NCBI GenBank assembly: GCA_027488845.1
Contig: JAIYBC010000004.1
Coordinates: forward strand, 106,603 to 170,602
Source of the DNA: Verrucomicrobiales bacterium
GTDB taxonomy: Bacteria > Verrucomicrobiota > Verrucomicrobiia > Limisphaerales > UBA9464
Direction: 5' to 3'
Length of the DNA: 64,000 bases
Below the pieces are notes generated by a model. It worked only from the letters and a program-made list of their open reading frames with translations. It was not told where the DNA came from and did no database searches. Shown piece after piece: positions 51,784-63,354 of the stretch (positions within the stretch are counted from its first letter, which is position 1; every line of letters begins with the position of its first letter). A program made the position numbers and the translations under genes.

Positions 51784-53538
51784 ATGCCCGTCGCCGCCAA
51801 TCCCGTCGCCGAAACCGCCTCCGACCTCCAGCCGCTGCTGGACGGGATGGTGACGGCGCGCCAGTTGTCCGTCGGCGACCGCGACGAGTTCCTCAGGTCG
51901 GGGAAGGCGGCCGCCGGCGAAGCTGAAGTCCTGAAGTGGCTGGCACCGGAATATGGGCTGGAGTACTCGTCCCTCGACGCCGTGGAACCGGGTCGGGAAC
52001 TGCTCGCGCAGTTCCCCGCCCGGGTCCTGATGCGGGAGGAACTCCTGCCCCTGCGCCGCAACGGAGGGACGGTCGAGGTGGCCACGAGCCGCCTGTTCAA
52101 CACCCAGGGGTTCGACGCCCTGAAGACGCTCACCGGCCTGCGACTGCATCCGGTGCTCGCGCCCACCGAGGCCATCCAGCGCGAACTCAAGAAGCACCTC
52201 GGCGTCGGCGCCGACACCATCGGCACCCTCGACGAGGAGAAGTCGATCCAGATCGTCGACGAGGGCGCCGAGGACAACAACCTCGACTCCGACGGCCAGG
52301 ACGAGGCGTCCATCATCCGCTTCGTCAACCAGGTGCTGAAGGATGCCATCGAGCTGCGCGCCTCGGACATCCACCTGGAACCGTTCGAGGACGAGTTCCG
52401 CATCCGGTACCGGATCGATGGCGACCTGCAGGAAATCCCCGTGCCGGCGCAGCTGAAGCAGTTCCAGCCGGCGATCGTCTCCCGCGTCAAGATCCTCAGC
52501 CACCTGAACATCGCGGAGAAGCGACTGCCACAGGACGGACGCATCAAGGTCCGCATCGACTCCGCCGACGTGGATATCCGCGTTTCGATCATCCCCATGC
52601 TCCACGGCGAGGCCGTGGTCATGCGCCTCCTGCGCCAGAACTCCTCCCTGCGCGGACTCGGCGACATCGGGATGGCGAAGCGGGACCTCGACTGCTTCCG
52701 TCGGGTGCTCGGACTTCCCCACGGCATCATCCTGGTCACAGGCCCGACCGGCAGCGGCAAGACGTCGACGCTCTACACGGCGCTCAACGAGATCAACGAC
52801 GCCGTCCGCAAGATCATCACCATCGAGGACCCCGTCGAATACCAGCTCAAGGGCGTCAACCAGATCCAGGTCTCGGAAAAGGCCGGCCTCTCGTTCGCCC
52901 GCGGTTTGCGCTCGATCCTGCGCCACGATCCCGACGTGGTCCTGATCGGCGAGATCCGCGACCAGGAGACCGCCCAGATCGCCGTGCAGGCCTCGCTGAC
53001 CGGCCACCTGGTCTTCTCCACGCTCCACACCAACGACGCCCCGGGTGCGCTGACGCGTCTGGTGGACATGGGTGTCGAACCCTATCTGGTGGCCTCCTCC
53101 CTGGAGGCGGTCCTCGCGCAACGCCTCGTCCGCGTGCTCTGCAAGAAGTGCAAGACACCCGACCTGAGCCCGACCGCCGCCGCCTTCAAGTCGCGGCTCG
53201 GCCTTCCCGCGGATGCCGTGCTCTACCAGGCCAACGGCTGCCGGGACTGCCGCGGGATCGGTTTCCTCGGACGCCATGCCATCTTCGAATGGATGGACAC
53301 CGACGAGAACATCCGCTCGATGATCCTCTCCCGCGCGTCGACCGACAGGGTCCGCGACGCGGCCCGCCGCGCCGGGATGCGGACCTTGGCCGAGGACGGC
53401 TGGCGGTTGGTCGCGCAGGGCATCACCACCGTGGAGGAGGTCCTCAGCGTCACCACGGCCAAGGAGACCGAACAGGCCACGCCCGCCGCGTCACCCGACG
53501 CCCCGTCGGCGGCCGAGATCGCGGTGAACCGGAAGTAG
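51784..53538 (+). CDS. gspE: Type II secretion/pilus assembly ATPase (GspE/PilB family)
   Basis: 584 residues. An N-terminal MshEN-like domain (SDLQPLLDGMVTARQL...) is followed by the catalytic core: DEASIIRFVNQVLKDAIELRASDIHLEP, the Walker A motif GPTGSGKTSTLY near residue 320, Asp box IEDPVEYQLKGVNQIQV, Walker B RHDPDVVLIGEIRDQETA and His box TLHTNDAPGALTRL. The zinc-binding cysteines are CKKCKTP and CRDC, characteristic of GspE. It powers pseudopilus assembly from the cytoplasmic face with GspL and GspF. First of a tightly packed operon. Confidence 0.95.
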   Translation: MPVAANPVAETASDLQPLLDGMVTARQLSVGDRDEFLRSGKAAAGEAEVLKWLAPEYGLEYSSLDAVEPGRELLAQFPARVLMREELLPLRRNGGTVEVATSRLFNTQGFDALKTLTGLRLHPVLAPTEAIQRELKKHLGVGADTIGTLDEEKSIQIVDEGAEDNNLDSDGQDEASIIRFVNQVLKDAIELRASDIHLEPFEDEFRIRYRIDGDLQEIPVPAQLKQFQPAIVSRVKILSHLNIAEKRLPQDGRIKVRIDSADVDIRVSIIPMLHGEAVVMRLLRQNSSLRGLGDIGMAKRDLDCFRRVLGLPHGIILVTGPTGSGKTSTLYTALNEINDAVRKIITIEDPVEYQLKGVNQIQVSEKAGLSFARGLRSILRHDPDVVLIGEIRDQETAQIAVQASLTGHLVFSTLHTNDAPGALTRLVDMGVEPYLVASSLEAVLAQRLVRVLCKKCKTPDLSPTAAAFKSRLGLPADAVLYQANGCRDCRGIGFLGRHAIFEWMDTDENIRSMILSRASTDRVRDAARRAGMRTLAEDGWRLVAQGITTVEEVLSVTTAKETEQATPAASPDAPSAAEIAVNRK

Positions 53539-53545
53539 CCCCGGC

Positions 53546-54790
53546 ATGCCGACCTTCCAGTACAAGGCCCTCCGTGCCGACGGCGGGATCGCCGAGGGCG
53601 CCATCGACGCGGGCGGACGCCCGGACGCCCTGCGCCAGATCCAGTCGCTCGGGCTCAGGCCGCTGCGCCTCACCGAGAAGGCGGGCAAGGACGGCAAGCC
53701 GCGTCCCGCCGCATCCGGTGCCGCCAACGCCGCCACCGGCTTCGGTTCCGGCAAGGTCTCTTCGAAGGAGCTCGAGACCTTCACCCGGCTCCTCTCCAGC
53801 CTGCTCTCCGCCGGCGTCCCGCTGAGCCGGGCCCTGGTCATCCTGGGCAAGGAGGCCTCGTCCCCGGCCGCCGCCGCGAAGTGGCGGGAAGTCCACGACC
53901 TCGTCGTCGACGGCATGTCGCTCGCCGATGCCATGGCGCGTTCCCCGGAGACCTTCCCCAAGGTCTACACCGCCATGGTCCAGGCAGGCGAGGCGGGCGG
54001 CTTCCTCGACCTCGTCCTGGCCCAGATCGCCGACTTCCAGTCCCGGGAAAAGGACCTGAAGTCGAAGGTCGCCACCGCGATGATCTATCCGGCGGTGCTG
54101 TTGGTGCTCGCCCTGGTCGTGTTGGGCGTGCTGCTCGTCTTCTTCATCCCGAAGTTCCAGACGGTCTTCGCCAGCGTGAAGGGTTCCCTGCCGTTGATCA
54201 CACAGCTGATCATCGCCACGAGCCGCGGACTCCGGGAGTACGGCCTCGTCTTCGTGGTGGCCGGCCTGGGGGCGTTCTTCGGACTGCGGACCTGGTTCAC
54301 CTCCGAAAAGGGACGCCGTTCCTGGGAGGGCATGCTTCTGGATGCGCCGGTGGTCGGAAACCTCCTCGCCCAGTTCGCCATGGCCCGGTTCTGCCGCATG
54401 CTCGGCACCCTGCTCGGGGCCGGCGTGCCCCTCGTCCAAGGCCTCAACGTCGCCCGCAAGTCCATCGGCAACCAGATCCTCGTCGACGCCGTCGCCGAAT
54501 CGATCGAGAAGGTCCAACAGGGCGGCCGGCTCGGCCAGAGCCTCGCCGAATGCCGCACGCTCTTCCCCGGTTCCGTGATGGAGATGATCTCCGTCGCCGA
54601 GGAGAGCGGCCACCTCGACAAGGAGCTGGTCCGCATCGCCAACGTCACCGAGGGCGAACTCGACCGCCAGCTCAAGACCGCCGTCGCCCTCGCCGAACCC
54701 CTCATGCTCTTCATGATCGCCGGATTCATCGGCATCATCTTCATCGGCATGCTCCTGCCGGTGTTCTCGCTCCAGGACAACATCAAGTAA
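53546..54790 (+). CDS. gspF: Type II secretion inner membrane protein
   Basis: 414 residues. Two tandem T2SSF domains: ELETFTRLLSSLLSAGVPLSRALVIL...YTAMVQAGEAGGFLDLVL and FCRMLGTLLGAGVPLVQGLNVA...EMISVAEESGHLDKELV, each preceding membrane segments (LLVLALVVLGVLLVFFIPKFQTVF, LMLFMIAGFIGIIFIGMLLPVFSL). The N-terminal FQYKALRADGGIAEGAIDA is the usual GspF lead. It forms the inner-membrane platform for GspE. It begins 7 nt after gspE. Confidence 0.95.
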   Translation: MPTFQYKALRADGGIAEGAIDAGGRPDALRQIQSLGLRPLRLTEKAGKDGKPRPAASGAANAATGFGSGKVSSKELETFTRLLSSLLSAGVPLSRALVILGKEASSPAAAAKWREVHDLVVDGMSLADAMARSPETFPKVYTAMVQAGEAGGFLDLVLAQIADFQSREKDLKSKVATAMIYPAVLLVLALVVLGVLLVFFIPKFQTVFASVKGSLPLITQLIIATSRGLREYGLVFVVAGLGAFFGLRTWFTSEKGRRSWEGMLLDAPVVGNLLAQFAMARFCRMLGTLLGAGVPLVQGLNVARKSIGNQILVDAVAESIEKVQQGGRLGQSLAECRTLFPGSVMEMISVAEESGHLDKELVRIANVTEGELDRQLKTAVALAEPLMLFMIAGFIGIIFIGMLLPVFSLQDNIK

Positions 54791-54825: not shown

Positions 54826-55263
54826 ATGAAGATCCCCGCCTCCACCAGCGCCCCGGAATCCCGTCGCCGACGCCACGGCTTCACCCTCGTCGAGATGCTG
54901 CTGGTGATCACCATCATCGGCATCCTCGCCGCCCTGGTGATCCCCAAGATGATGGGTCGCTCCGAGCAGGCCCGTCAGGCCGCCGTCCGCGCCGACATCG
55001 CCGCGGTCAAGACCGCCCTCGACGCCTTCGAGGTCGACAGCGGCTTCTACCCCAAGAACATCAACGACCTCCTCCAGGCGCCCCGCGACGCGAAGAACTG
55101 GCGCGGACCCTATCTGGACAAGATCCCGCAGGACCCGTGGGGCAACGCGTACACCTACGCCTACCCGGGACGCCACAACGCCAACTCCTTCGACATCTCC
55201 TCGTCCGGACCCGACGGGAAGACCGGCACCGACGATGACATCGGCAACTGGACGGCCAAGTGA
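54826..55263 (+). CDS. gspG: Major pseudopilin
   Basis: 145 residues. The type IV prepilin site HG-FTLVEMLLVITIIGILAALVIPK is followed by the GspG features DIAAVKTALDAFEVDSGFYPKNINDLL and DPWGNAYTYAYPG, then a C-terminal SSSGPDGKTGTDDDIGNW with Asp residues that bind calcium in homologues. It is the main subunit of the pseudopilus and is cleaved by a prepilin peptidase not encoded in this window. Confidence 0.95.
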   Translation: MKIPASTSAPESRRRRHGFTLVEMLLVITIIGILAALVIPKMMGRSEQARQAAVRADIAAVKTALDAFEVDSGFYPKNINDLLQAPRDAKNWRGPYLDKIPQDPWGNAYTYAYPGRHNANSFDISSSGPDGKTGTDDDIGNWTAK

Positions 55264-55756
55264 CCGGGGAGCGCGGGACGGGTTCACGCTCATCGAGCTG
55301 GTCCTCGTCCTCGCCCTCCTCGTGATCGCCGTCTCCATCGTGTCGCCGCGCATCTCCGGCTTCATCCGCGGCCGGGCGATCCATTCCGAGGCCCATCGTC
55401 TGTACTCGCTGCTCCGTGCCGGCCAGGCCCGGGCGATCTCGGACGGGATGCCCGCCATGGTCTGGCTCGACGCCGCCGCGGGACGCTACGGCATGGCCAC
55501 GGAGACCCCGGCTGGGAAGTCGGATCCTAAGGAACTCGAGTTCATCGCCGACGAAACCCTCCGCATTTCCGTAACCACGGGCACCGGCACCTCGGTCACT
55601 TTCCGCGACCGCCCCGCCGTCCGATGGCTTCCCGATGGAACCGCGGATGAGGGCAGTCCCGGCCGGGTCGAGCTGAGGGACGCGCTGGGCACGTCCCTGT
55701 GGCTGGTGGAAGCCGCCGACCGACGCGGATATGAGATCCAGAACGCAACCAACTAG
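55235..55756 (+). CDS. gspH: Minor pseudopilin GspH-like
   Basis: 173 residues with the prepilin motif DG-FTLIELVLVLALLVIAVSIV and a GspH-like body (RLYSLLRAGQARAISDGMPAMVWLD, VTFRDRPAVRWLPDGTADEGSPG). The start lies within the 3' end of gspG and overlaps it by 29 nt in another frame, so translation is probably coupled. Confidence 0.85.
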   Translation: MTSATGRPSDRGARDGFTLIELVLVLALLVIAVSIVSPRISGFIRGRAIHSEAHRLYSLLRAGQARAISDGMPAMVWLDAAAGRYGMATETPAGKSDPKELEFIADETLRISVTTGTGTSVTFRDRPAVRWLPDGTADEGSPGRVELRDALGTSLWLVEAADRRGYEIQNATN

Positions 55757-56168
55757 ACATCGCCGCTCCGGCTTCACGCTGGCCGAGCTGCTGGCGTCGC
55801 TGCTGTTCCTGGCGATCGTCATCCCGGCCGCCGTGCAGGCGCTGCGCGTCGCCAGCCTCTCGGGCACCGTCGCCGCAAGGAAGGGGGCCGCCGCGCGGAT
55901 CGCCGACCGCGTCCTCAACGAGAGCCTCGTCCTCACCAACTGGTCCAACGCCTCCCAACGTGGAACCACCCGCGAGGGGAGCATCGAGTACCGCTGGTCG
56001 TTGAGCCGTTCCAACTGGAACCTCCCCGACCTCCAGGTGCTCACCGCCGAGGTCACCTTCGCCGCCCAGGGACGCGACTACGCCGTGCGGCTCTCCACCC
56101 TGGCCGATGTCGCCGACCTGAATCCCGGCGCCTCCTCCACCACCCTTTCCGCCACCTCCTCCCGTTGA
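55731..56168 (+). CDS. gspI: Minor pseudopilin GspI-like
   Basis: 145 residues beginning with a basic leader and SG-FTLAELLASLLFLAIVIPAAV, then a short globular domain (RIADRVLNESLVLTNWSNAS, YRWSLSRSNWNLPDLQVLTAEVTF) of the size and pattern of GspI. It overlaps gspH and gspJ at either end. It belongs to the tip complex with GspJ and GspK. Confidence 0.82.
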   Translation: MRSRTQPTRHRRSGFTLAELLASLLFLAIVIPAAVQALRVASLSGTVAARKGAAARIADRVLNESLVLTNWSNASQRGTTREGSIEYRWSLSRSNWNLPDLQVLTAEVTFAAQGRDYAVRLSTLADVADLNPGASSTTLSATSSR

Positions 56169-56863
56169 ACGTCCGGAATTCCATCGGGACGACAGGTCTG
56201 GGCGAACGGGCCCGGCACGGGTTCACGCTCATCGAGCTGATCCTCGCGATCGGGCTCGCGGCGATCGTGCTGGTCGCCGTGAACGGCGCCTTCTTCGGCG
56301 CGGTGCGGCTCCGGAACAGGACCGCGGAGACCATCGACGCGGCCGCGCCGCTCGACCAGGCCGCGGAGATCCTGCGCCGCGACCTGTCCTGCGCCGTCGC
56401 CCCCAAGCCGGACGGCGTCATGTCGGGCGCCTTCCGGGCCGGCAACGTCTCCGCCCTCGGCCTCGGACAACCCGTCCAGCTCGAGTTCCACACCGCGACC
56501 GCCGTCATGGACCGCACCCAACCCTGGGGCGAGGTCCAACGCGTGGCCTACGGGCTCCGCGGCAACGGCAACTCCAGGGACCTGTACCGCTCCGTCACCC
56601 GCAACCTCCTCACCCTCGGCACACCCCAGACCGAGGACCAGCTCGTCCTCCGCGACGTCTCCCAGTTCCGCGTCCAGTGCTTCGACGGGGCGATGTGGAC
56701 CGAGACCTGGGACACGTCGGACACCGCCGCCCTGAGCACGAACCTCCCCTTGGCCGTCCGGCTCCAGATCCAGCGCGGCGCCAACTCCGACCCTTCCAAC
56801 CCGACGGAACTCCTCGTCCCGGTACGCGTGGTCGCCCGGAACATCTCCAACACCACCCTCTGA
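56165..56863 (+). CDS. gspJ: Minor pseudopilin GspJ-like
   Basis: 232 residues from a TTG start overlapping the gspI stop. The prepilin motif HG-FTLIELILAIGLAAIVLVAV is followed by LDQAAEILRRDLSCAVAP, which resembles the GspJ helix. The C-terminal half is beta-rich (FRVQCFDGAMWTETWD...LAVRLQIQR). Assignment rests on position between GspI and GspK as well as sequence. Confidence 0.82.
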   Translation: MNVRNSIGTTGLGERARHGFTLIELILAIGLAAIVLVAVNGAFFGAVRLRNRTAETIDAAAPLDQAAEILRRDLSCAVAPKPDGVMSGAFRAGNVSALGLGQPVQLEFHTATAVMDRTQPWGEVQRVAYGLRGNGNSRDLYRSVTRNLLTLGTPQTEDQLVLRDVSQFRVQCFDGAMWTETWDTSDTAALSTNLPLAVRLQIQRGANSDPSNPTELLVPVRVVARNISNTTL

Positions 56864-56867
56864 GCGG

Positions 56868-58220
56868 TTGAGGACCACGGCTCCATCAAGTCCCGAGAGC
56901 GCTCCCCGGAAGCGGGGGTCGGTGCTGATCCTCGTGCTCTGGATGTCCGTCGGCCTGGTGGCGTTGGCCCTGTACTTCGCGGACACCATGACCCTCGAGC
57001 TGCGGGCCTCGGCCAACCGGGCCGCGGGCCTCGCCGCCGAACAGGCCATCGAGGGAGCGTCCCGCTACGTGGCCTGGTCGATCCTCAACCTCTCCACCAA
57101 CGGGGTGATCCCGACCAACTCCCTCTTCCGCTGCGAATCCCTTCCCATCGGCGAGGCCAGGGTGTGGATCATCGGCCGCGACACGCCGCCGACGCTGAAC
57201 GTCACCGCCACCCAACCCGTCTTCGGGCTCGTGGACGAGGCCGGCAAGCTGAACATCAACCGGGCCGGCTCCAACATCCTCGTCTACCTGCCCGGGATGT
57301 TCGTCGACGTCGCCCAGGCCGTCGTCGACTGGCGGTCCACCAACAGCACCCTGACGCTGAACTACGGGGCCCTGGGCTACGAGGCCAAGCACGGCCAGTA
57401 CGAGAGCCTCGACGAACTGCGGCTGGTCCAGGGGATCACGCTCGCCGACCTCGAGGGCGACGACCGCAACCGCAACGGCGTCCAGGACGCCCAGGAGAAG
57501 GCGGCCTCCGGGGCCAAGCCCTTCCACCCGGGACTGCTCGACTACCTGACGGTCTACAGCCGCGAGCCGAACACCCATTCCGACGGCACGACGTTGACCA
57601 ACATCGGCAACCGCGCGCAGCTGCTCGGCCTGCTCGGCACCGCCTTCGGCCAGGCGCGCGCCCAGCAGGTGCTCAACCAGCTGGGATTCCGGGGCAACGC
57701 CACGCCGACCATCGCGAGCCCCCTCCAGTTCTACCTGAACAGCGGACTGGGCGAGGACGACTTCGCGCGCATCGCCGGCGAACTGGCCACGTCCACCAAC
57801 TCCTTCACCTACGGACGGGTCAACGTCAACACCGCCCCCGAGCCCGTGCTCACCGCGTTGTTCATGGGCTCCGGCGTGAACGAGCAGACCGCCACCGGCG
57901 CCGCGGAGACGCTCATCAACTACCGCCGCAGCAACCCCGACTCCCTCGGAAGCGTGGCCTGGATCGTCACCGCCCTCGGGCGGAACAGCCCCGTGGTCAC
58001 CGCCCTGGCCCAACGCGACCGCATCACGACCCGCAGCTTCCAGTACTCCGCCGACATCGCGGCCGTGGGTCCAGAGGGACGCGGCTACCGGCGGGTCCGC
58101 TTCGTCTTCGACCTCTCCGACGGCACCCCGAAGATCATCCACCGACAGGACCTCAGCCGGCTCGGCTGGGCCCTCGGCGACACGGTCCGGGAGAAGCTTC
58201 TGGCCGGAAACACCCCATGA
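56868..58220 (+). CDS. gspK: GspK-like minor pseudopilin
   Basis: 450 residues from a TTG start. The N-terminus, RKRGSVLILVLWMSVGLVALALYFADTM, is the GspK form of the prepilin helix. It is followed by FGLVDEAGKLNINRA, YESLDELRLVQGI and FTYGRVNVNTAPEPVLTALF with helix-hairpin-helix-like SAM elements of GspK. It caps the pseudopilus tip. It overlaps gspL as ATGA. Confidence 0.9.
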   Translation: MRTTAPSSPESAPRKRGSVLILVLWMSVGLVALALYFADTMTLELRASANRAAGLAAEQAIEGASRYVAWSILNLSTNGVIPTNSLFRCESLPIGEARVWIIGRDTPPTLNVTATQPVFGLVDEAGKLNINRAGSNILVYLPGMFVDVAQAVVDWRSTNSTLTLNYGALGYEAKHGQYESLDELRLVQGITLADLEGDDRNRNGVQDAQEKAASGAKPFHPGLLDYLTVYSREPNTHSDGTTLTNIGNRAQLLGLLGTAFGQARAQQVLNQLGFRGNATPTIASPLQFYLNSGLGEDDFARIAGELATSTNSFTYGRVNVNTAPEPVLTALFMGSGVNEQTATGAAETLINYRRSNPDSLGSVAWIVTALGRNSPVVTALAQRDRITTRSFQYSADIAAVGPEGRGYRRVRFVFDLSDGTPKIIHRQDLSRLGWALGDTVREKLLAGNTP

Positions 58221-59665
58221 ACTCAGCCGCCATCTCCGGATTCGGGCGACGAAAACGCCCCACCTCGATCGTCGGTCTCCGGCTCGGAGCCGGACGCCTC
58301 GAGGCCGCCCATCTCGTCCGCGCCAACGGATCGCTGCGGATCGTCGCCAGCGTGACCGTGCCGCTGGCTTCCGCGGTACCCTCGACCCCTCCCGAGGCGC
58401 TCGGCACCGAGATCCGGACCCACCTCGAGGCCGCGGGCATCCGCGAGCGCCATTGCGTGGTCGCCGTCCCGCCCCGCTGGATCCTCACCGGAAGGACCGA
58501 GATCCCCGAGCTCCCGGACGCCGACGCCGAGAGCCTCCTGCAACTGGAGGCCGAACGCTGCTTCTCCACCGACACCGCGGCGTTGCGCCAGGGTTCGTCC
58601 CGGTGCGGGCTTCCCGGCGGCAGCCACCACGTGACCCTGTTCGGCGTGGCCGACTCGCCGTTGTCGGGACTCGAGGCGGGCCTGACGAAGGCGGGACTCC
58701 GGCTGGAAGGACTCCCGCTGGGAACCCCAGCCCTGGTGCGTCCCCAGGAATTCCGCGACGGACTCCTGCTGATCTCCCTCGAGGACGAACAGGTGATCCT
58801 GCTGGTCATGGCCGGTGGCGGCGTCGCCGCGCATCGGACCCTGGAAGGCGATCCGGCCGAGGACGGCTCCCGCCTCGCCCCGCGGCCGGAGATCGTGGCC
58901 CGCGAGATCCGCATCACGCTTGGCCAGCTTCCCGACGCGCTCCGCCAACAGGTGACGCGCGCCCGGATCACCGGGCCGTCGGCACCGTCACAGGCCCTCG
59001 CCGATGCCCTCGGCGACCGCCTGCGCCAGTCCGGACTGGCAACCGAGGTCGCACCGAACTTCCCGGACGGCGAGCCCGGACCCGGAATCGCCTCCGGAAC
59101 GCCCGCTTCCATCGCCGTCGCGATCGCGGCCCGGTTCCTGGTGGGGATCCCGTCGCCCTGCGACCTGCTTCCCCCGCGGCCGACCCTGGTGGGACGACTC
59201 GTGGCCCGCTACTCGGCGGGCCGGCTCAAGACCGCCGGGGCCGTCGCCGGCGGCGTCTTCGCGCTGCTCGCCGCCCTGGTCCTCTACCAGCAGGTGCAGC
59301 TCTTCCTTCTGGGACGCCGCTGGTCGGCGATGTCGGCCAAGGTCTCCGAGCTGGACTCGATGCAGCAGCGCATCCGGCAGTACCGCCCGTGGTTCGACGA
59401 ATCCTTCCCGAACCTCGCGGTCCTCCGGCAGCTCAGCGCCGCGTTCCCCCAGGATGGCTCGGTGACCGCGACGAGCATCGAGATCCGCGAGGGCTCGAAC
59501 GTGACCTGCGCCGGAACCGCCCGGGACACCGCGGCGTTCCTGCGGATGCTGGAGACGCTCAACGCGGCGCCCGGCGTGACCCAACTGCACCGGGACCAGA
59601 TCCGCGGCACCAGTCCGATCCAGTTCACCTTCGGCTTCCAGTGGAACCCGGCAGCCACACCATGA
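58217..59665 (+). CDS. gspL: GspL/PilM-like secretion protein
   Basis: 482 residues. An actin-like cytoplasmic domain (IVGLRLGAGRLEAAHLVRANG, ERHCVVAVPPRWILTGRTEIPEL) precedes a single membrane helix (TAGAVAGGVFALLAALVLYQQVQLFLLG) near residue 350 and a periplasmic ferredoxin-like part (FPQDGSVTATSIEIREGSNVTCAGTARDTAAFLRMLETLN). This layout is that of GspL fused to a PilN-like region. It links GspE to the membrane platform. Its stop overlaps the next gene. Confidence 0.83.
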   Translation: MNSAAISGFGRRKRPTSIVGLRLGAGRLEAAHLVRANGSLRIVASVTVPLASAVPSTPPEALGTEIRTHLEAAGIRERHCVVAVPPRWILTGRTEIPELPDADAESLLQLEAERCFSTDTAALRQGSSRCGLPGGSHHVTLFGVADSPLSGLEAGLTKAGLRLEGLPLGTPALVRPQEFRDGLLLISLEDEQVILLVMAGGGVAAHRTLEGDPAEDGSRLAPRPEIVAREIRITLGQLPDALRQQVTRARITGPSAPSQALADALGDRLRQSGLATEVAPNFPDGEPGPGIASGTPASIAVAIAARFLVGIPSPCDLLPPRPTLVGRLVARYSAGRLKTAGAVAGGVFALLAALVLYQQVQLFLLGRRWSAMSAKVSELDSMQQRIRQYRPWFDESFPNLAVLRQLSAAFPQDGSVTATSIEIREGSNVTCAGTARDTAAFLRMLETLNAAPGVTQLHRDQIRGTSPIQFTFGFQWNPAATP

Positions 59666-60198
59666 ACATCCGCAACCGACAACAGCTTCTCATGATCCTC
59701 GCGGCCGGGGCCGCGGCCCTCTACGCCGCGGACCTCCTGGTCATCGGCCCGGCCGGCGACTGGTGGACCGCACGCTCCAAGCGGATCGAATCCCTCCGCA
59801 AGCAGGTCGACGAAGGGGCCGCCCTGCTCCGGCGCGAGGCGGGAATCCGCGGACGCTGGGAATCGATGAGGACCAACACCCTTCCCGCGGATCCCTCGCT
59901 CGCCGAGCAGCGCCTGCTCAACGAGTTCAACACCTGGTCCCGCGCCGCCGGAGCCGAGGTGACGGACACCATCCCGCAATGGCGCAACGACTCGGAGGAG
60001 CATTCCACCCTCACCTGCCGCGTGGAGGCCTCGGGATCGCTCTCCCACCTCGGCGGTTTCCTCCAACGGATCGAAGACAGCCCCCTCGGCGTCCGGATCG
60101 CCTCGGTCCAGCTCGGAACCCGTGACAAGACCGGACAGAAGCTCACCCTCGGCCTCCAGGTGAGCGGCCTCACCCTCACCCCGGAATCCCGCCCATGA
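59662..60198 (+). CDS. gspM: GspM/PilO-like secretion protein
   Basis: 178 residues with one N-terminal membrane helix (LLMILAAGAAALYAADLLVIGPAGDWW), a coiled coil (RIESLRKQVDEGAALLRREAGI) and a ferredoxin-like periplasmic domain (LTCRVEASGSLSHLGGFLQRIEDSPLGVRIASVQLG). Topology and position after GspL identify it; sequence alone is weak. It overlaps both neighbours by 4 nt. Confidence 0.75.
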   Translation: MNIRNRQQLLMILAAGAAALYAADLLVIGPAGDWWTARSKRIESLRKQVDEGAALLRREAGIRGRWESMRTNTLPADPSLAEQRLLNEFNTWSRAAGAEVTDTIPQWRNDSEEHSTLTCRVEASGSLSHLGGFLQRIEDSPLGVRIASVQLGTRDKTGQKLTLGLQVSGLTLTPESRP

Positions 60199-60767
60199 AG
60201 CGCACCCGCATCCCCGCCGCCGTCGGCCTCGCGGTGACGCTGCTCGCCTTCCCGGCGCGCGCGGCCGAGGAGTCGACGACCAACGCCACCGCCGCCACCG
60301 CGGACCCGGCCTCGTTCGTCCGCTTCATCTCGGACCGGAACATCTTCGACCCGGACCGCCGTGCCCGCGGACCCGGCGAGTCGCGCCGACAGCCGGAGCG
60401 GCCGCGCAACACCGTGATCCCGACCCTCACCCTCGTGGGCGTCATGGACTACTCGCGCGGCCGGTTCGCCTTCTTCGACGGCCCCGCCTCCGAGTACAGG
60501 AAGACGATCGCCGCCAACGGGTCCATCGCCGGATTCACGGTCTCGGCAATCCGGCCGTCCTCGGTCATCCTGAAGCCCAAGGAGGGCGCGGAGATCGAAC
60601 TGGCGATCGGCAAGGCCCTGCGCCTGGACGGTGCCGAACCCGTGGAGGCCCCGGCGAAGGCCGATGCCACCGCGGCGGCCGACGCCGCCACACCGCCGGC
60701 CGCCTCCGGCGACGCCGCCGAAGTTCTCAGGAAGCTCATGCTGAAACGCCAACAGGAGTCGAAATGA
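60195..60767 (+). CDS. GspC/PilP-like periplasmic protein
   Basis: 190 residues. A homology-region-like domain, PTLTLVGVMDYSRGRFAFFDG to VILKPKEGAEIELAIGKALRL, resembles the HR domain of GspC and PilP, which docks on the N0 domain of the secretin. The segment FISDRNIFDPDR just before it is also typical. Unlike classical GspC, the N-terminus (AVGLAVTLLAFPARAAEE) reads as a cleavable signal peptide, and there is no PDZ domain. It is placed immediately before the secretin genes. Confidence 0.78.
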   Translation: MKRTRIPAAVGLAVTLLAFPARAAEESTTNATAATADPASFVRFISDRNIFDPDRRARGPGESRRQPERPRNTVIPTLTLVGVMDYSRGRFAFFDGPASEYRKTIAANGSIAGFTVSAIRPSSVILKPKEGAEIELAIGKALRLDGAEPVEAPAKADATAAADAATPPAASGDAAEVLRKLMLKRQQESK

Positions 60768-62098
60768 ACACTGCCATCACCCGGATCATCTCCGCCGCCT
60801 GCGCCGCCGGCATGCTCGCCGCCGCCCGCGCCGAGGACGTCCCCAAGTCCGCCGACACCGCCACCGAAGCCAAAGCCACCGCCGCGGCGCCGGTGAAGGT
60901 GGAAGACTCCACACCCAAGCCCGCCGCCTCGGAGCCCCAGCCACTGGCCGAGACGACGCCGTCGTCGGGCCCCGACGCCATCCGCCTCAACTTCCGGAAC
61001 GCGCCGCTCGACCAGGTCCTCAGCCACCTCAGCGAGGCCGCCGGCTTCGTCGTGGTCATGGAGGCCACGGTGAAGGGCGAGGTCAGCGTGATCAGCAACC
61101 AGCCCCTCACCCGTGACGAGGCGGTGGACCTGCTCAATTCGGTCCTCGGCAAGAACGGCTACGCCGCGATCCGGGACGGCAGGACCCTCACCATCGTGGA
61201 CCGCAGCACCGCCAAGAGCCGCAACATCCCGGTCAAGGTGAGCAATGATCCGGCTCTGATCCCGGCCAACGACGAGGTCGTGACCCAGATCATCCCCATC
61301 CGCTACGTCGAGGCCGAGCAGTTGGCCAAGGACCTTTCCACGTTCGTCTCCGCGAACGCCACGTTCGTGGCGAATGCGGCCGGCAACTCGATCGTGATGA
61401 CCGACACCCAGTCGAACATCCGGCACCTGGTCGAGATCATCCGTGCGATCGACACCAGCGCCCAGTCCGAAACCGAGATCCGGGTCTTCAAGCTGAAGAA
61501 CGCCAATCCGGGTGAGGTGGCGACGCTGCTCACCGAGCTCTTCAACACCAGCTCCTCGAGCGGATCCGGCACGCAGTCCCCGATCCGCTTCGGTGGGGCC
61601 CCGGGCGCAGGCGGCTTCGGTGGGTTCGGGGGATTCGGCGGCTTCGGGGGTGGCGGACGCGGCGGTGGCGGTGGCGGCGCCGCCGCCACGGCCTCCGGCG
61701 CCAACGACCGCATCCGCAAGGCCTCACAGGTCGTCTCGGTGGCGGACGCCCGCACCTCCTCGGTCGTGGTCACCGCCTCCAAGGACCTGATGACCCAGAT
61801 CGCGGGCATGGTCCGCGAACTCGACGTGCCCTCCAACCGGGACCAGCGCGTGTATGTCTACCACATGGAGAACGGGGATCCGCAGCAGGCGGTCCAGGTG
61901 CTCCAGAACATGTTCCAGGGCAGCAATTCCGGCCGCGGGAACAGCGCCTCCTCCACGGCACAGCAGAACAGCGCGCTCATGCAGCGCCAGCAGAACAACG
62001 CCAGCAGCAGCAGCACCACGGTCAGCGGCGGGACGTCGTCGGCCTTCGGCGGCACCGGGACCCGTACCGGCGGTGGCGGTGGCGGAAACCTGTTCTGA
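60764..62098 (+). CDS. gspD: Secretin N-terminal domains protein (first half of a split GspD)
   Basis: 444 residues with a signal peptide (ISAACAAGMLAAARAED). N0/STN domain: IRLNFRNAPLDQVLSHLSEAAGF. N1: TQIIPIRYVEAEQLAKDLSTFVSA with NSIVMTDTQSNIRHLVEII. N2: IRVFKLKNANPGEVATLLTELF, a Gly-rich loop (GFGGFGGFGGFGGGGRGG) and VVSVADARTSSVVVTASKDL. The start of N3, QRVYVYHMENGDPQQAVQVLQNMF, is followed by a Ser/Asn/Gly-rich tail and stops. No membrane-spanning secretin domain is present; it is in the next gene. It cannot be a pore by itself. Confidence 0.88.
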   Translation: MNTAITRIISAACAAGMLAAARAEDVPKSADTATEAKATAAAPVKVEDSTPKPAASEPQPLAETTPSSGPDAIRLNFRNAPLDQVLSHLSEAAGFVVVMEATVKGEVSVISNQPLTRDEAVDLLNSVLGKNGYAAIRDGRTLTIVDRSTAKSRNIPVKVSNDPALIPANDEVVTQIIPIRYVEAEQLAKDLSTFVSANATFVANAAGNSIVMTDTQSNIRHLVEIIRAIDTSAQSETEIRVFKLKNANPGEVATLLTELFNTSSSSGSGTQSPIRFGGAPGAGGFGGFGGFGGFGGGGRGGGGGGAAATASGANDRIRKASQVVSVADARTSSVVVTASKDLMTQIAGMVRELDVPSNRDQRVYVYHMENGDPQQAVQVLQNMFQGSNSGRGNSASSTAQQNSALMQRQQNNASSSSTTVSGGTSSAFGGTGTRTGGGGGGNLF

Positions 62099-62124
62099 AC
62101 CCCACGGTCTTTCCCACAGATTCC

Positions 62125-63354
62125 ATGAACATTCCTTCCTTCCGGCGGTTCACCCGCCTCGCCGCGGCGGCCGCACTGGTCCTGGCGGCAACCCCGCTTC
62201 TCCACGCGCAGCAGCGCGGCGGCGGCGGTGGCGGGTTCGGTGGCTTCGGCGGATTCGGCGGCGGCGGCGGCAACAACGCCAACCGCGGCGGCTCCTCGAG
62301 CAGCTCCAGCCAGTACAACAACAACGGCAGCGTCGGCAGCGCCATCATCTCGGTCGATCCCCAGACCCACAACATCATCGTCATCGCCGACGCCGACACG
62401 AGCCTCCAGATCAGCAACGTCATCTCCAACCTCGACTCCCCGAAGCCGCAGGTGCTCATCAACGTGGTGTTCGTCGAGGTCCAGCTCAACAACTCCTCCG
62501 ACATCGGCGTCGAGGGCGGTTGGGCCAAGAACGTCGGCAACGGCATCACCACCGGCGGCGGATCCGTCCTCGGCCTCTCCGGCCTCAACTCCGTGGTGAC
62601 CAACGCCAGCGTCATCGGCGGCCCGATGTCCGGCGCCCTCACCCCGGGCGCGAACGGCGCCGGCGCCGGCGGCCTCTACCAGATCGCCGGGACCGACTTC
62701 CAGGCCACGCTCCGCGCCATCGCCAAGGCCGGGAAGGCCCAGGTGCTCTCCAAGCCCTCCATCATCGCCCGCGACGGCCAGCTCGCGAAGATCGTCGTCG
62801 GACAGCAGGTCCCCCTGCCCTCCGGCGTCTCCTTCGCCCAGGCCGGGAACAACACCATCCCCATCGTCAACGTCAGCTATACCGACGTCGGCATCATCCT
62901 CAACGTCACGCCGTTCATCGGCGCCAACGGCCAGGTGGAGATGATCGTCCAACCCCAGATCTCGTCGGTCTCGCCCACCGAACGCCAGTCGCTCTCCTCC
63001 GACGTCTCGGCCCCCTACATCAATGTCCGGTCCGCCGACACCGTGGTCGTCACGCCGCACTCGCAGACGGTGGTCATCGGCGGACTGATCTCCGACACCA
63101 AGTCCGACGCCGAGAGCAAGGTGCCGATCCTCGGCAGCATCCCGGGCCTTGGGAACCTCTTCAAATCGAGGCAGAAGAGCCGCTCCAAGACCGAGCTGCT
63201 GATCTTCCTGACGCCCTACATCGTGGATGCCCCGACCCAGCTGGCCTCCCTTTCCAGCTCGATGCGGGACCGCTCGCAGGTGATCACCAATGCCGCGACC
63301 GAGAAGGAACTGGACCGGTTCCTCGAGAAGCTGCCGACGAAGAAGCAGCCGTGA
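62125..63354 (+). CDS. gspD: Secretin C-terminal (pore) protein (second half of a split GspD)
   Basis: 409 residues with its own signal peptide (LAAAAALVLAATPLLHAQQ) and a Gly-rich stretch (GGFGGFGGFGGGGG). It then resumes N3 at its second half: SAIISVDPQTHNIIVIADAD and LQISNVISNLDSPKPQVLINVVFVEV. The secretin domain follows: FQATLRAIAKAGKAQVLSKPSIIARDGQLAKIVVGQQVPLP, VSYTDVGIILNVTPFIG and the signature TVVIGGLISDTKSDAESKVPILGSIPGLGNLFKS, then KTELLIFLTPYIV. Together with the preceding protein it would make a complete T2SS outer-membrane channel. It starts 26 nt after the first half and is the last gene of the operon. Confidence 0.93.
   Translation: MNIPSFRRFTRLAAAAALVLAATPLLHAQQRGGGGGGFGGFGGFGGGGGNNANRGGSSSSSSQYNNNGSVGSAIISVDPQTHNIIVIADADTSLQISNVISNLDSPKPQVLINVVFVEVQLNNSSDIGVEGGWAKNVGNGITTGGGSVLGLSGLNSVVTNASVIGGPMSGALTPGANGAGAGGLYQIAGTDFQATLRAIAKAGKAQVLSKPSIIARDGQLAKIVVGQQVPLPSGVSFAQAGNNTIPIVNVSYTDVGIILNVTPFIGANGQVEMIVQPQISSVSPTERQSLSSDVSAPYINVRSADTVVVTPHSQTVVIGGLISDTKSDAESKVPILGSIPGLGNLFKSRQKSRSKTELLIFLTPYIVDAPTQLASLSSSMRDRSQVITNAATEKELDRFLEKLPTKKQP

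Follow-up and report, generated by a model that had tools for sequence, protein, structure and literature searches.

A type II secretion secretin of Verrucomicrobiota encoded by two adjacent genes and divided inside the N3 domain

The window analysed here is the whole 64-kb stretch of DNA that forms the end of its contig in a 5.39-Mb draft genome. It contains a complete and collinear type II secretion system (T2SS) operon, in which gspE-F-G-H-I-J-K-L-M-C lie head to tail and are followed by two secretin genes, gspD-N and gspD-C. The genes and features were identified as follows:
51784..53538, + strand: gspE (ATPase); Pfam T2SSE and MshEN
53546..54790, + strand: gspF; Pfam T2SSF
54826..55263, + strand: gspG, major pseudopilin; Pfam T2SSG, start codon set by eye
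55235..55756, + strand: gspH, pseudopilin; Pfam GspH and N_methyl
55731..56168, + strand: gspI, pseudopilin; Pfam T2SSI at E=0.001, below cut-off, and position
56165..56863, + strand: gspJ, pseudopilin; Pfam T2SSJ
56868..58220, + strand: gspK; Pfam T2SSK
58217..59665, + strand: gspL-like, inner-membrane platform; no Pfam match, assigned by position and by synteny kept across orders
59662..60198, + strand: gspM-like; no Pfam match, assigned by position and conserved synteny
60195..60767, + strand: gspC; weak NCBIfam GspC_delta match (E 2e-7, below cut-off) and position
60764..62098, + strand: gspD-N, 444 aa, with N0, N1, N2, the first half of N3 and its own signal peptide
60986..61180, + strand: N0 domain, residues 75-139 of the gspD-N product; Pfam PF21305
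61844..61921, + strand: N3 stub, strand 1 and helix 1, residues 361-386; alignment with N3 of 5wq7
61964..61987, + strand: conserved tail motif Q401-x3-L405-x2-R408, after the N3 stub
62125..63354, + strand: gspD-C, 409 aa, with the second half of N3 and the pore domain
62125..62208, + strand: gspD-C signal peptide; hydrophobic core and AxA-Q motif
62314..62439, + strand: second half of N3, strands 2 and 3 and helix 2, residues 64-105; Secretin_N positions 25-69 and 5wq7 alignment
62719..63228, + strand: Secretin pore domain; Pfam PF00263, E=4.5e-48

Encoding together with gspC and gspE-M, which is a trait of T2SS secretins, was met, with gspL and gspM assigned by position and synteny only. 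The prepilin peptidase gene was found away from the operon, on contig C57. By eye, the N-terminus of GspC (60195-60767) resembled a cleavable signal peptide (FPARA-AEE) and not a plain membrane anchor.

The two secretin genes were in different reading frames with 26 nt between them. Pfam analysis showed the GspD N0 and Secretin_N domains in the gspD-N product, and only positions 25-69 of Secretin_N followed by the whole Secretin domain in the gspD-C product. The GspD profile was the best-scoring one for both halves, and TIGR02517 (GspD) was covered at positions 1-295 by the gspD-N product and at 277-599 by the gspD-C product; taken together, the two proteins met the order N0, N1, N2, N3, Secretin domain. 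Alignment to the solved GspD 5wq7 indicated that GspD-N reaches through strand 1 and helix 1 of N3 (VYYLKYAKATNLVEVL) and that GspD-C begins at N3 strand 2 (AITADEQTNSLVITAD), which placed the break in the loop from helix 1 to strand 2 and left every secondary-structure element intact. The gspD-C signal peptide ended ...LLHA-QQRGGG, and a Gly-rich linker preceded the N3 strands of GspD-C. The initial annotation had proposed a secretin made as two separately exported proteins and split inside N3, and this reading was supported by the Pfam, TIGR02517 and 5wq7 alignments, with export as a prediction. Its assignment of N0, N1, N2 and the first strand-helix half of N3 to gspD-N was borne out by the 5wq7 alignment, that of an own signal peptide, the second N3 half and then the pore to gspD-C by Pfam and the same alignment, and the Gly/Ser-rich sequence that it had described on each side of the break was visible. 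The PulD model omits a loop at 288-303 (PMC6882859), and the PulD chain aligned with GspD-C from about position 307; the unmodelled loop would fit flexibility of the chain at the break, provided that both numberings agree, which was left unchecked.

To determine how far the split extends, relatives were searched at several levels. Secretin matches were found in every one of 50 genomes of the family, 40 of them with strong matches (E below 1e-45) to GspD-C; 217 of 320 genomes of the order had a strong GspD-C match, and other orders and classes of the phylum gave further ones. The resulting pair sample contained 197 stretches with both genes, 168 of them distinct, from about 40 family-level groups by our own count, and it was biased toward strong GspD-C matches. 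Relatives with the same pair, where named, were Limisphaerales, Pedosphaera and other Verrucomicrobiota MAGs, from which the source was inferred to be most likely a member of Verrucomicrobia subdivision 3. The genes were split in all 197 stretches (168/168 distinct pairs), and fused relatives, sought in the family, order, class and phylum samples, were absent among the 168 distinct pairs. Long open frames at several matches were considered as fused gspD and rejected, since they were either distant one-piece paralogues or frames overlapping each other in GC-rich DNA. A continuous gspD in close relatives, which would have refuted the initial annotation, was thus not met in this operon (0/168), and the search of Verrucomicrobiota that it had suggested found the split in every distinct pair (168/168). 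Synteny was kept in L118, a single-contig genome from a different family of the class, with the same order from gspF to gspC and then gspD-N and gspD-C. The trait of a single polypeptide per subunit was not met, with two ORFs and no fused case in 168, and the locus was therefore classed as a GspD variant and not as an ordinary member.

Among the 168 distinct pairs, the gap from gspD-N to gspD-C had a median of 29 nt (5-95%, 5 to 68), the frame offsets were 59/57/52, and gspD-N ended in TGA in 81, TAA in 65 and TAG in 22. A signal peptide opened gspD-C in 167 of 168 pairs, and in the first-tested set the hydrophobic core and AxA-Q motif were at the gspD-C start in 73 of 73 pairs. The same frame in 57 of the 168 pairs would permit one protein to be made from both genes by programmed frameshifting or stop readthrough, but the frame offsets are even, on which ground this candidate was rejected; all three stop codons are in use, and such a product would carry a signal peptide in mid-chain, so we consider it scarcely credible. 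The earlier statement that the locus is not a simple frameshift holds for the new signal peptide at the start of gspD-C and for the 168 of 168 distinct related pairs that are split. As separate observations, 335-809 nt without a clear gene inside separated both secretin genes at L092, L168 and L202, and the alignment showed an additional N2-like domain in GspD-N of L064, L087, L089, L099 and L039, with the cut still in N3.

Sequence conservation was then analysed in both genes. In close pairs, dN/dS was 0.05-0.10 for gspD-N and gspD-C alike, which indicates strong purifying selection on both. In nine comparisons of close pairs, some of them overlapping, the N3 stub (28 codons) had 35 synonymous changes and no non-synonymous one, whereas the ratio for N0-N2 was 0.088; these counts were not turned into a p-value because some comparisons share branches. 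In 67 aligned pairs, mean entropy was 1.31 bits for the stub, 1.35-1.49 for N2 and 1.13 for N1, which meant that the stub was about as conserved as N2. L380 of the stub was invariant and D372 was present in 66/67 pairs, V363 and F384 being further conserved residues, while the tail motif had R408 in 67/67, L405 in 65/67 and Q401 in 60/67; the complementary N3 half was retained in GspD-C of the aligned pairs. Distance matrices of the N-protein and the C-protein agreed (r=0.86, permutation maximum 0.18), but this is weak evidence alone because genes of one operon are expected to agree. Apart from the origin of the window in a single draft genome, nothing speaks for an error of sequencing or assembly or for a gene pair that decayed recently, and 168 split pairs from independent genomes, one of them single-contig, and dN/dS of 0.05-0.10 led us to reject both with practically no reservation; sequencing error, another refuting case of the initial annotation, was excluded by the 168 of 168 pairs. 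The split is real, old and under selection.

The same genome has other secretins. A second cluster, G000:C35 (L007:2692-8976:+), contains a one-piece 814-aa GspD-like secretin and a second gspE, and similar one-piece proteins of about 750-920 aa were found in most other genomes checked, so absence of a second gspD could not be used as evidence. Such a one-piece secretin (about 800 aa), present here and in most of the other genomes checked, could in principle be the real channel, with the split pair decaying or otherwise employed. We regard this as very improbable, since it adjoins its own gspE apart from this operon, no N0 match in the genome other than that of the split pair is above cut-off, and both split halves are under strong purifying selection. 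The possibility raised earlier that a complete gspD elsewhere serves this system was correct in that such a secretin exists; its own gspE and the selection on the split halves speak against such a role, which is not excluded outright. Three further loci were noted. In G000:C36:38640-51156 (L117:1141-13656:+), a 4171-aa ORF carried 34 stretches of Secretin_N and, at its C-terminus, a Secretin domain, which makes it a giant secretin of roughly 35 N-domains; frames open for about 4000 aa recurred across the family at the same kind of secretin match, and nothing on a giant multi-N-domain secretin was found in the open literature. An 875-aa ORF at G000:C47 (L009:7486-10113:-) had, by eye, an M56/BlaR1-type membrane domain-like start and a secretin domain at its end, and a 970-aa secretin at G000:C18 (L008:6885-13559:-) lay in a cluster that resembled pilM-N-O-Q by eye.

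N3 structurally belongs with the pore (C-) module and N0-N2 is able to assemble alone (PMC5646246, PMC10550240), so the N2/N3 boundary would be the simplest place to divide a secretin; the actual division leaves half of N3 on GspD-N, where it is kept unchanged. AlphaFold modelling of the L053 pair as one chain through the stop gave both N3 halves a pLDDT of about 81-92 and the GspD fold order, with PulD 6hcg as best match over its length (E=1e-34), and the stub was modelled as a strand in both this and the N3-only model. When the N3-only model of L053 was searched with Foldseek, the second half alone aligned; a single long alignment had 20.7 A rmsd, and its TM-score was no better. Covariation over 165 pairs placed the top inter-half stretch at an antiparallel strand 1-strand 3 pairing, where expected, but it was not above the shuffled null (mean-field), and the intact hairpin used as positive control was silent, so the covariation was given no weight.

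We propose that the Verrucomicrobiota T2SS secretin is built from two exported chains, and that the stub most likely completes N3 in trans and docks the two layers. GspD-N and GspD-C would each be exported by their own signal peptide; GspD-N would form the periplasmic rings (N0, N1, N2) that meet GspC, and GspD-C would supply the outer-membrane pore together with the remaining half of N3. The conserved stub would complete N3 of GspD-C in trans in the periplasm; in its simplest reading, it is the plug by which the N-rings are held to the pore. We consider it probable that the two halves come together again outside the cytoplasm and build the pore. That both chains are exported, that they assemble into a single channel, that N3 is their joint and that the stoichiometry is 1:1 is inferred, and a channel secreting folded proteins is likewise inferred, without biochemistry; completion of N3 in trans is our preferred mechanism and the likelier option, for which direct evidence is absent. 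A two-layer ring without N3 reassembly, in which GspC and the tail motif hold a GspD-N N0-N2 ring and the stub is otherwise used or neighbour-swapped, would agree with the self-assembly of isolated N0-N2 of XcpQ (PMC5646246), with the conserved tail motif after the stub and with the lack of a match of the N3-only model to a complete N3. However, the stub retains the N3 strand-helix pattern with zero amino-acid changes in nine close comparisons, and GspD-C keeps the complementary N3 half, so we consider such a ring unlikely.

In some lineages, the N-terminal protein was cut again (G087 and G088 of family f16; G146, G147 and G148 of family f41), giving three-piece secretins at L151/L234, L152, L222/L233, L231 and L232. 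The second cut lay inside the first N2 domain, following its strand 1 and helix 1, where the sequence is Gly-rich, and in the loop equivalent to the N3 break; the gene after it began with a new signal peptide. Of six pairs with an apparent gap above 300 nt, three were such three-piece secretins, and the other three are L092, L168 and L202. On the C-protein tree, the f16 pair was nested in two-piece relatives (support 0.996), distant from the f41 group, so at least two separate origins are implied for the second cut. That N2 and N3 domains are divided by the same rule speaks for half N-domains as a joint that can function.

Split secretins are already known from type III secretion and mitochondrial T2SS, but a divided bacterial GspD, in Verrucomicrobiota or otherwise, was not described in the open literature searched (subscription papers and preprints were outside scope). 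One-piece GspD (PulD, XcpQ, E. coli GspD) has the same N0-N1-N2-N3-pore order and the same operon partners, but it is a single chain with a single signal peptide, whereas here the N3-loop cut gives two chains, and an added N2-loop cut three. In rhizobial type III secretion, RhcC1 and RhcC2 likewise put the N-terminal and pore parts on two genes (PMC3574062, PMC3459982). However, RhcC2 is of Tad secretin origin, arrived by partial gene replacement and has a BON domain of its own, and the rhc genes lie apart, whereas here both parts are collinear with one GspD, the genes are adjacent and each carries a half domain; a Tad-derived pore half with a BON domain was not met, as GspD-C scored best as GspD and had no BON match. 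Mitochondrial GspD is spread over up to five proteins (GspD, GspDL, GspDN1-3), of which GspDN2 and GspDN3 are the C- and N-terminal halves of an N-domain (PMC8134430), and the half-domain break described here resembles that of GspDN2/3. The mitochondrial proteins are eukaryotic and highly diverged, with a pore part without any N domain and part of the C domain missing, whereas here all domains are retained and the genes are adjacent; small proteins each matching a single or half N-domain were not met, as the halves are attached to full domains. Divided gspD may thus be seen as a bacterial parallel to divided mitochondrial GspD, with no claim of common origin.

T2SS secretins are usually regarded as single-chain oligomers. 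In many lineages of one phylum, the secretin would instead be made from two or three exported chains, with repeated cuts at the same type of loop in a small domain. Gene finders and T2SS-detection rules that require one full-length gspD may miss or misname such systems. As the layers are separate proteins, their stoichiometry, assembly order and separability become directly measurable. This matters for the 15:12 mismatch between the pore and the inner-membrane platform, which is unresolved and under debate (PMC10550240). A doubtful but possible extension is that the split frees the ring copy number from that of the pore, for example 12 GspD-N under 15 GspD-C, or permits exchange or docking on demand. 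Decoupled copy numbers would clash with strict completion of every N3 but, if true, would resolve the 15:12 symmetry mismatch of the T2SS in a natural way.
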